DNA of 64,000 nt from a bacterium (GTDB lineage Bacteria > Vulcanimicrobiota > Vulcanimicrobiia > Vulcanimicrobiales > SCRA01). The DNA lies in assembly GCA_004298675.1 (NCBI GenBank), contig SCRI01000086.1, positions 62,001-126,000 of the forward strand. The letters run 5' to 3'. The position numbers and the translations under genes were made by a program. Every line of letters begins with the position of its first letter. Position 1 is the stretch's first letter. The notes beneath the pieces were generated by a model. That model had not been told where the DNA came from, did no database searches, and saw only the letters and a list, made by a program, of their open reading frames with translations. This document shows, in pieces, positions 3,922 through 28,164 of this stretch.

Positions 3922-5532
3922 ATGCTGAGCAAGAAGGCCGAGGGAGCGCCGCCCCCGACCCTGCGTCGCGCCGTTACTCCGTGGGGTTCGTACTCATGGG
4001 GATACGCCGACGTCGGCGCCGACATCTATGCGGCGCTAGGCTTAGTGGTTGGGGCTGCGGCGGGTGCCGCAAACGTCGCTTTCGCCTTCGCCGGCCTGGT
4101 GTACGTGCTCGTGGGGCTCGCTTATACCGAGCTCGCCAGTGCGTTTCCCGTCGCCGGCGGCGGGCAGTTTTTCGTATTGCGAGGCTTGGGCGACATCTGG
4201 GGCTTCGTGGCCGGCTGGGCGGTGCTGCTCGACTTCACGATCGACATCGCGCTCTTCGCCTGGACGATGATCGGTTACCTGAGTAATCTCGTTCCGTTCT
4301 TGGCCAGCTCGAATACGATCCCGCACTTCATTTTCGTGCTGCTCGTGGTTGCCGGGCTGACCGCGCTCAACGTCGTGGGCGTCCGTGAGAGCTCGCGCCT
4401 CAACGAAGTGGTGGGCGCCATCGACATCGCCAACGAGTTGGCGATTCTCTGTTTGGCCGCGCTATTCACGTTCGACCCCAACCTCTTGATTCACACGATG
4501 GAGACGCACTGGCCGACCACGTTCGAGTTGCTAAACGGCGTCTCGTTGGCGATCATCTCGTTCGTCGGCATCGAGTCGATCTCGCAGGCGGCACAGGAGA
4601 CGGAACGGCCGGCCTCGATCATCCCGCGTACGTCGATCTCGCTGATTCTGACGATCCTGATCTTTGCGCTATCGTACTCCAACATCGTGCTGGGGATGCA
4701 TCCGTGGCACCCGCAGATGATGCTCGACGCGCACGGCCATCAGCTGCAGATGTTTCAGTGGCTGGGGCTGCCCGCAAACCAGGATCACGCGGTCGCGCTC
4801 TTGGCCAGCCAAATCCCGTACTACGGCGTGGTGGCCGCGCTCTACGTGCCGCTGGTCGGCGCGGTGCTGATGCTGATCTCCTCGAATTCCGGTGTCTACG
4901 GAGCCTCGCGCATCGCGTACTCGATGGCCACCTACCACCTGCTGCCGTCCACGTTCGCTGCGGTGGCCAAGCGCTTCCGCACGCCGGCGATCTCGATCTT
5001 GGTGTTCAGCGGCGTGGCGGTGGTGGAGCTGATCTTCGCCGCCGTCCAGGGCGACCAAGGCTTGGCGTTCCTGGGCGATCTCTACGCCTTCGGTGCGGCC
5101 ACCAGCTACTCGCTGGTCTTCATCGCGCTGATCGCGCTGCGTTACAAGGATCCGCATAGCCCGCGCACCTACCACATGCCGCTGGGCATCCCGATCACGA
5201 CCAACGGCAGGCGCTGGAGCTTTCCGTTGCTGGCGGTGCTCGGCTTCATGGGTACGTTTTCCATCCTCGTGTTCGCGTTTATGACGCACCCCATCGGGCG
5301 CATCGCCGGGCCGTCGTGGGTTCTGGCCGGACTGATCTTCTACGTTCTCTACCGGCGCCTGCACGGTCAGCCGGTCCTACGCTCCCGCCGGCATGACTGG
5401 GTACGCGACCAAGTGGTGGTACTGCGCGAGGCCGGCGAACTAGAGTTGATGGACAAGTACGTCACCGACGTGCAAGCGGCGGGGCTGCTGGACAAGAACG
5501 TCAGCGTGACGACCATGGAGCGAGAAAAGTGA
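3922..5532 (+). CDS. APC-superfamily permease
   Basis: Multiple TM segments, WGSYSWGYADVGADIYAALGLVVGAAAGAANVAFAFAGLVYVLVGLAYTELASAFPVAGGG; ATG 3922. Confidence 0.85.
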   Translation: MLSKKAEGAPPPTLRRAVTPWGSYSWGYADVGADIYAALGLVVGAAAGAANVAFAFAGLVYVLVGLAYTELASAFPVAGGGQFFVLRGLGDIWGFVAGWAVLLDFTIDIALFAWTMIGYLSNLVPFLASSNTIPHFIFVLLVVAGLTALNVVGVRESSRLNEVVGAIDIANELAILCLAALFTFDPNLLIHTMETHWPTTFELLNGVSLAIISFVGIESISQAAQETERPASIIPRTSISLILTILIFALSYSNIVLGMHPWHPQMMLDAHGHQLQMFQWLGLPANQDHAVALLASQIPYYGVVAALYVPLVGAVLMLISSNSGVYGASRIAYSMATYHLLPSTFAAVAKRFRTPAISILVFSGVAVVELIFAAVQGDQGLAFLGDLYAFGAATSYSLVFIALIALRYKDPHSPRTYHMPLGIPITTNGRRWSFPLLAVLGFMGTFSILVFAFMTHPIGRIAGPSWVLAGLIFYVLYRRLHGQPVLRSRRHDWVRDQVVVLREAGELELMDKYVTDVQAAGLLDKNVSVTTMEREK

Positions 5533-27383: not shown

Positions 27384-27776
27384 TTAGCGCTTCGTCAAGG
27401 TATGGTAAATACTCTGAGGCTCGTGTCGATGGCCAAACCCTCGCAGCTCGATTGAACCTTCGCCCAGCACTCGATAGACGAGGCGCAGATCCGCTCGTTG
27501 ATTGCGCCGTACGCAAGACTGGAATTTGGAGCGCTTCCAGCCCGTGTGTGCGTGCTGAAAATCCGTACCGCGGCCAGGCTCCCGCGTCACCAGGAGCACC
27601 TCCTTTGCGACGGCATCGATGGCGGCGATGTATGCATCGTCCTGGTCATAGGCGAGACGCAGGTTCGCGATGTCGTCGGAGATGTGTTCTGGGTTCGCGA
27701 CAATGTCGAGTTTCGCGATCATCGCGAGAAACCCGCTTACTGCGTCGCGGACACTCCTCTTGGAAGGCGTGCTCAG
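27384..27776 (-). CDS. putative toxin of a type II toxin-antitoxin-like pair (RelE/ParE-like C-terminus), CTG start proposed
   Basis: Frame continues from antitoxin stop (CTGA overlap), GGAG 6 nt before CTG; RNQRADLRLVYRVLGEGSIELRGFGHRHEPQSIYHTLTKR resembles RelE-like toxin C-termini. Confidence 0.55.
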   Translation of the reverse strand: MSTPSKRSVRDAVSGFLAMIAKLDIVANPEHISDDIANLRLAYDQDDAYIAAIDAVAKEVLLVTREPGRGTDFQHAHTGWKRSKFQSCVRRNQRADLRLVYRVLGEGSIELRGFGHRHEPQSIYHTLTKR

Positions 27777-28102
27777 AGAAGGCTCCGCTGCTTCAGGCGC
27801 TTCGAAACAGCTGCACTGAGCTCTCGGCCTTGCAGTAACGGCGCACCTTCCCGCTCCTCGATGATGCGGCTGGCGACTTCGTCTTCCAGTGCTTCTAGTT
27901 GCGCTTCGAGCCGTTCTTGTGACGCTGCGATGGCGCGCCAACGCTCCGGCGAAACGAGGACCCCAACAACACCCGACTCTCCACGGCCGCGCCGCTCGAC
28001 GCGGAGTTGCTTAAAGCGGCCGAGTCGCTTTCGCCAGGTCTCTTCGTGCCGCATCTCGGAGACCGAGATCGCGGCGTCCATCTCGAACTTGAGGTCCTTC
28101 AT
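27773..28102 (-). CDS. putative antitoxin
   Basis: 109 aa, charged helical C-terminus, directly upstream of and coupled to the toxin frame: MKDLKFEMDAAISVSEMRHEETWRKRLGRFKQLRVERR... Confidence 0.6.
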   Translation of the reverse strand: MKDLKFEMDAAISVSEMRHEETWRKRLGRFKQLRVERRGRGESGVVGVLVSPERWRAIAASQERLEAQLEALEDEVASRIIEEREGAPLLQGRELSAAVSKRLKQRSLL

Positions 28103-28125
28103 GGTTTGCCCCCTCGGCTAGCGTA

Positions 28126-28164
28126 CTGTATGGGCTATGGATTGTCAATCTATAGCCCATACAG
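28126..28164 (-). promoter_or_regulatory. 39-bp palindromic operator with embedded TTGACA -35 upstream of TA-like pair
   Basis: CTGTATGGGCTAT-A-GATTG-A-CAATC-C-ATAGCCCATACAG (minus strand): 18 of 19 arm positions pair. Confidence 0.75.

Follow-up and report, generated by a model that had tools for sequence, protein, structure and literature searches.

In the window, that is, the whole stretch of 64,000 nucleotides analysed here, we found a pair of small genes that probably forms a two-gene type II toxin-antitoxin operon, in which toxin translation would restart at low yield at the CTG of a CTGA junction. The first-pass annotation had proposed a toxin-antitoxin-like pair with inefficient CTG initiation coupled to the antitoxin; the finding is real, and the interpretation is the best one available. 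What is known of this module is the toxin-antitoxin superfamily to which it would belong, and what appears to be new is a forced near-cognate start that turns up repeatedly in one phylum, both inside this family and in others.

The gene pair and its families

The two genes are adjacent and co-directional, with the antitoxin first and the toxin second, as in a type II module, and they fill exactly the interval 27384-28102 given by the first-pass annotation. To judge from the translations, the neighbours would be a DUF72-like gene on one side and a gene for a branched-chain amino-acid binding protein on the other; in G001, a genome of the same genus, the syntenic contig ends beside the locus. 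The features of the module are as follows.

28126..28164, no strand: 19-bp inverted repeat around a single central nucleotide, upstream of the antitoxin gene; likely operator
28109..28115, minus strand: GAGGGGG, Shine-Dalgarno-like as read from the sequence, 6 nt before the antitoxin ATG
27773..28102, minus strand: antitoxin gene for 109 aa, running from an ATG to a TGA, Phd/YefM-like by the profile of family members and by fold
27783..27786, minus strand: GGAG, Shine-Dalgarno-like, 6 nt before the CTG; anti-SD duplex of -5.8 kcal/mol
27774..27776, minus strand: CTG, putative toxin start, in overlap with the TGA that ends the antitoxin gene; homology begins directly after it
27384..27776, minus strand: toxin gene for 130 aa, running from the putative CTG start to a TAA, of the RelE/ParE superfamily by predicted fold, with an N-terminal helical extension

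The inverted repeat is nearly perfect and contains a TTGACA (28148-28143, minus strand); its position before the antitoxin gene makes it the likely operator of the module.

Both proteins, previously described only as resembling a toxin-antitoxin pair, fall by profile and predicted fold into type II toxin-antitoxin families. The PF02604 (PhdYeFM_antitox) profile matched 4 of 8 members of the antitoxin family at E<=1 (best 9.4e-7); the window antitoxin taken alone had no PF02604 match. The top 18 PDB matches to its predicted fold were all antitoxins of the Phd/YefM type (best E 0.044), and the profile of the family and the fold agree in pointing to this type.

Counted from the CTG at 27776, the toxin translation is of 130 aa (LSTPSKRSVRDAVSG...IYHTLTKR). 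The PF05016 (ParE_toxin) profile matched it with E=0.01 and 16.8 bits, under the curated cut-off of 23, and weakly matched 6 of the 10 toxin family members (best E 0.005); NCBIfam and PADLOC gave no useful match for the toxin, and a search for a sequence match to RelE gave none. Its AlphaFold model has a pLDDT of 90, and the top 14 PDB matches of this model in Foldseek were all toxins of the RelE/ParE superfamily, the best four with a probability of 1.00 and a TM-score on the target of 0.65-0.73 (about 0.7 for ParE), at E-values of only about 5e-3. By its predicted fold, and below the Pfam cut-off, the toxin is thus of the RelE/ParE type. The Pfam and fold matches would favour a ParE-like action, on gyrase; the residues Arg98 (invariant in the toxin family), Arg117 (nearly invariant) and Tyr124 (invariant) recall what we take to be the catalytic Arg/Arg/Tyr of the E. 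coli RelE nuclease.

The toxin start in the window and in its relatives

On the minus strand, no stop interrupts the toxin frame between 28010 and its TAA at 27386..27384. Three statements of the first-pass annotation hold at its junction with the antitoxin gene: the frame has no ATG, GTG or TTG nearby, the CTG (27776-27774) and the TGA of the antitoxin (27775-27773) run into each other as CTGA, and the GGAG (27786-27783) stands exactly 6 nt upstream of this CTG. Upstream, the nearest standard start in the frame is a TTG at 27941, at a distance of 55 codons and within the antitoxin gene; downstream, it is an ATG at 27722, 18 codons away. The match to the family profile begins at residue 82 of the frame, which is codon 4 if the CTG is taken as codon 1, and CTG 27776 is apparently the only plausible start of this toxin. 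A CTGA is not improbable by itself, because this DNA is 66% GC and 13 of 208 same-strand neighbour pairs have one; what exceeds chance is the onset of homology right after the CTGA, together with the lack of a usable standard start and the repetition of the arrangement in relatives.

Relatives of the toxin frame were found in 13 of the 149 genomes of the phylum examined, the window's own and those with fragments included, all within its own order. With the tools used, the family was found only in Candidatus Eremiobacterota, some of its loci coming from bog samples; a pattern search of viral contigs and a tblastn search of plasmids gave no toxin relatives, and a scan of genome contigs with the single window protein gave no matches. 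Scanned with a family alignment, the genome contigs gave three hits, which correspond to loci already counted from G130, G047 and G002. The antitoxin-toxin pair is kept across the order at roughly 23-44% identity, with the matching antitoxin directly upstream of the toxin, except at L006, where there is none, and at loci decayed or cut by contig ends. At L006 (G002:C52) the toxin lies directly behind a helicase-like gene; the CTG is kept at the homologous start, and an ATG 12 codons further upstream overlaps the end of that gene.

Eleven junctions could be read, with the toxin starting at GTG in 7 (L002, L003, L004, L005, L007, L009 and L027), at CTG in 3 (the window, L020 and L024, all of them CTGA), at ATA in one (L008, as ATAG) and at ATG in none. 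Of the GTG starts, those of L007 and L027 form a GTGA with the antitoxin stop, and those of L002, L003, L004, L005 and L009 lie near the stop. L026 was left out of this count as frameshifted; TTG and ATG are available there. As in the window, the frames of L020, L024 and L008 hold no ATG, GTG or TTG between their opening and the conserved block. The starts are homologous: L007 reads GTG-ACC-CCG-GCC-GAC and L020 CTG-ACC-CCG-GCG-GAC, and the two proteins begin at the same residue. All the antitoxins of the family start with ATG. The occurrence of relatives with an upstream ATG, named in the first-pass annotation as a possible refutation, was looked for, and no intact paired relative starts its toxin in this way. 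In a weakly supported tree, the toxin of the window groups with GTG members and not with the other CTG members, which suggests separate origins for these CTG starts. A conserved Shine-Dalgarno site was considered as a common cause and rejected: the GGAG, well placed in the window, is not conserved among relatives, so that coupling would have to do the work in the other loci.

The relatives also bear on where translation of the toxin begins. Upstream in the toxin frame, the TTG at 27941 stands alone as a standard start and could give a protein of 185 aa, but this is extremely improbable: the additional stretch is the arginine-rich sequence of the antitoxin overlap, the family profile starts only at residue 82 of the frame, and in L002, L003, L005, L020 and L024 a stop interrupts the frame no further than about 10 codons from the start. 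The ATG at 27722 (Met19) is the first standard start past the junction, and with it the reading upstream would be untranslated. We regard this as decidedly unlikely, as it would put the start about 50 nt past the antitoxin stop and would cost the toxin both its conserved N-terminal block, present in GTG-started relatives, and roughly half of its first helix (residues 9-22, predicted in a high-confidence model). The same Met, in FLAMIAKLD, was the second possible refutation named in the first-pass annotation, and it fails by this loss of conserved block and helix.

Initiation at the CTG could also be dispensed with altogether if a -1 frameshift at the end of the antitoxin gene produced an antitoxin-toxin fusion. 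In the window and in L007, L008, L020 and L024 the two genes do overlap by 4 nt, with the toxin in the -1 frame, but it is in the +1 frame in L003, L004 and L005 and in the same frame behind a stop in L002, and by eye no slippery heptamer is seen at the window junction. Because these frame relations vary, we reject the frameshift as very unlikely. Decay is the other way to account for a missing start, the toxin being then an untranslated relic whose start was lost to mutation. Decayed relatives do exist: L022 (G007:C20) is an N-terminal fragment, L026 (G031:C25) a frameshifted copy, and L042 and L043 each hold an antitoxin of the window's family alone, with no recognisable toxin downstream. 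The window frame, nevertheless, runs through its 130 codons without a break, retains the invariant residues and has a confidently predicted fold; L020, L024 and L008 are likewise intact without a standard start, and the same junction in other ParE families argues against a relic, which we hold to be very unlikely. A toxin initiated at the junction codon remains the preferred reading.

Start codon use was compared with a background of 464 kb, drawn from three of the order's genomes (400 kb of genome regions plus the window), in which a crude coding score called 208 same-strand neighbour pairs. A GTG start alone is unremarkable, since among the four-base overlaps of this background GTGA (34) is about as frequent as ATGA (29). 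The lack of ATG in all 11 toxins is unusual against these overlaps (p about 0.001, for 11 loci that share ancestry) and against the antitoxins (Fisher test, p=7e-7, a value that overstates independence because the loci are related). There is also a large excess of near-cognate starts over ordinary pairs: a standard start near the junction is missing in 4 of 11 toxins (the window, L020, L024 and L008) and in about 2 of the 208 pairs (p=5e-5). In the pairs, standard starts were sought up to 60 nt from the junction, and two of those without one looked truly near-cognate on inspection. These two background candidates are an acyl-CoA dehydrogenase, with a CTGA junction, and a membrane protein. The acyl-CoA dehydrogenase-like gene (L104, minus strand, around base 4110 of the reverse complement) overlaps the upstream stop as CTGA with no standard start nearby, and CTG initiation is therefore probably not peculiar to toxins in these genomes.

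Proposed mechanism and known systems

The two genes, their family and fold, the junction, the lack of a standard start and the recurrence in relatives can all be read from the sequences and the models built on them. From these we infer CTG initiation, coupling, a set dose ratio, toxicity and autoregulation, in the following manner. The Phd/YefM-type antitoxin would be translated from a strong ATG site, and some of the ribosomes finishing it at the CTGA would restart at the overlapping CTG, helped by the GGAG. This restart would yield the RelE/ParE-fold toxin at a low level, and the toxin would therefore stay below the antitoxin; the antitoxin-toxin complex would probably repress its own promoter at the 19-bp palindrome.

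The weak start may thus act as a built-in brake that keeps the toxin scarce, a view strengthened by the 0 of 11 ATG starts among the toxins, as against antitoxins that all start with ATG, and by the precedent of KacT4. In Klebsiella KacAT4, the KacT4 toxin starts with GUG in 369 of 370 cases and with CUG in 1 of 370, and it inhibits growth only with AUG, expression from the native GUG start being harmless (PMC9431474). As in that GNAT-RHH module, the toxin gene studied here is overlapped by the antitoxin gene and apparently has a weak start codon; unlike it, the toxin and antitoxin are of unrelated families, and where the GUG of KacT4 is nearly universal, a CTG or ATA is here forced in 4 of 11 loci. 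An orphan Rhs toxin is expressed at a low level from an internal CTG and acts as a toxin-antitoxin module (PMC7043789). It shares with our toxin the CTG codon, but it derives from a large delivery gene and is not coupled to an upstream antitoxin stop. Compared with modules that combine a PF02604 Phd/YefM antitoxin with a RelE/ParE toxin, the pair in the window has the same gene order, overlap, antitoxin fold and profile, toxin fold and upstream palindrome; it differs in that its 130-aa toxin has an N-terminal helical extension, lies under the Pfam cut-off and has no NCBIfam model.

Gene finders allowing only ATG, GTG and TTG would miss or truncate such toxins and leave apparent orphan antitoxins. 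If the proposed mechanism is true, evolution could set the ratio of toxin to antitoxin simply through the junction codon, and CTG would be the regular start of a gene family and not a rare exception.

Other toxin families of the order

Other PF05016 ParE-family pairs of the order have a CTGA (L062, L066 and L086) or an ATAG (L061) with no other start available. One might speculate, tentatively and at somewhat less than even odds, that in Eremiobacterota selection has favoured near-cognate or absent starts (CTGA, ATAG, none) for RelE/ParE-superfamily toxins from several toxin-antitoxin families unrelated to one another, the junction acting as a translational throttle by which the toxin is made only by ribosomes that have just completed the antitoxin. 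Among the VapC toxins of the order, against the 4 of 11 in the window's family, 0 of 30 are without a standard start, all of these starts being within 18 codons of the domain.

In a separate RelE family (PF05016; L113-L119, the same places as L075, L078, L081, L082, L080, L079 and L058), there is no ATG, GTG, TTG or CTG between the in-frame TGA and the conserved domain, and the Phd antitoxin, read in a different frame, ends at NTA TAG. Either ACG, AGG or TCG may serve as a very weak start, or there may be recoding. L125, of another family, has an ATG at about the place where these seven loci have no start.
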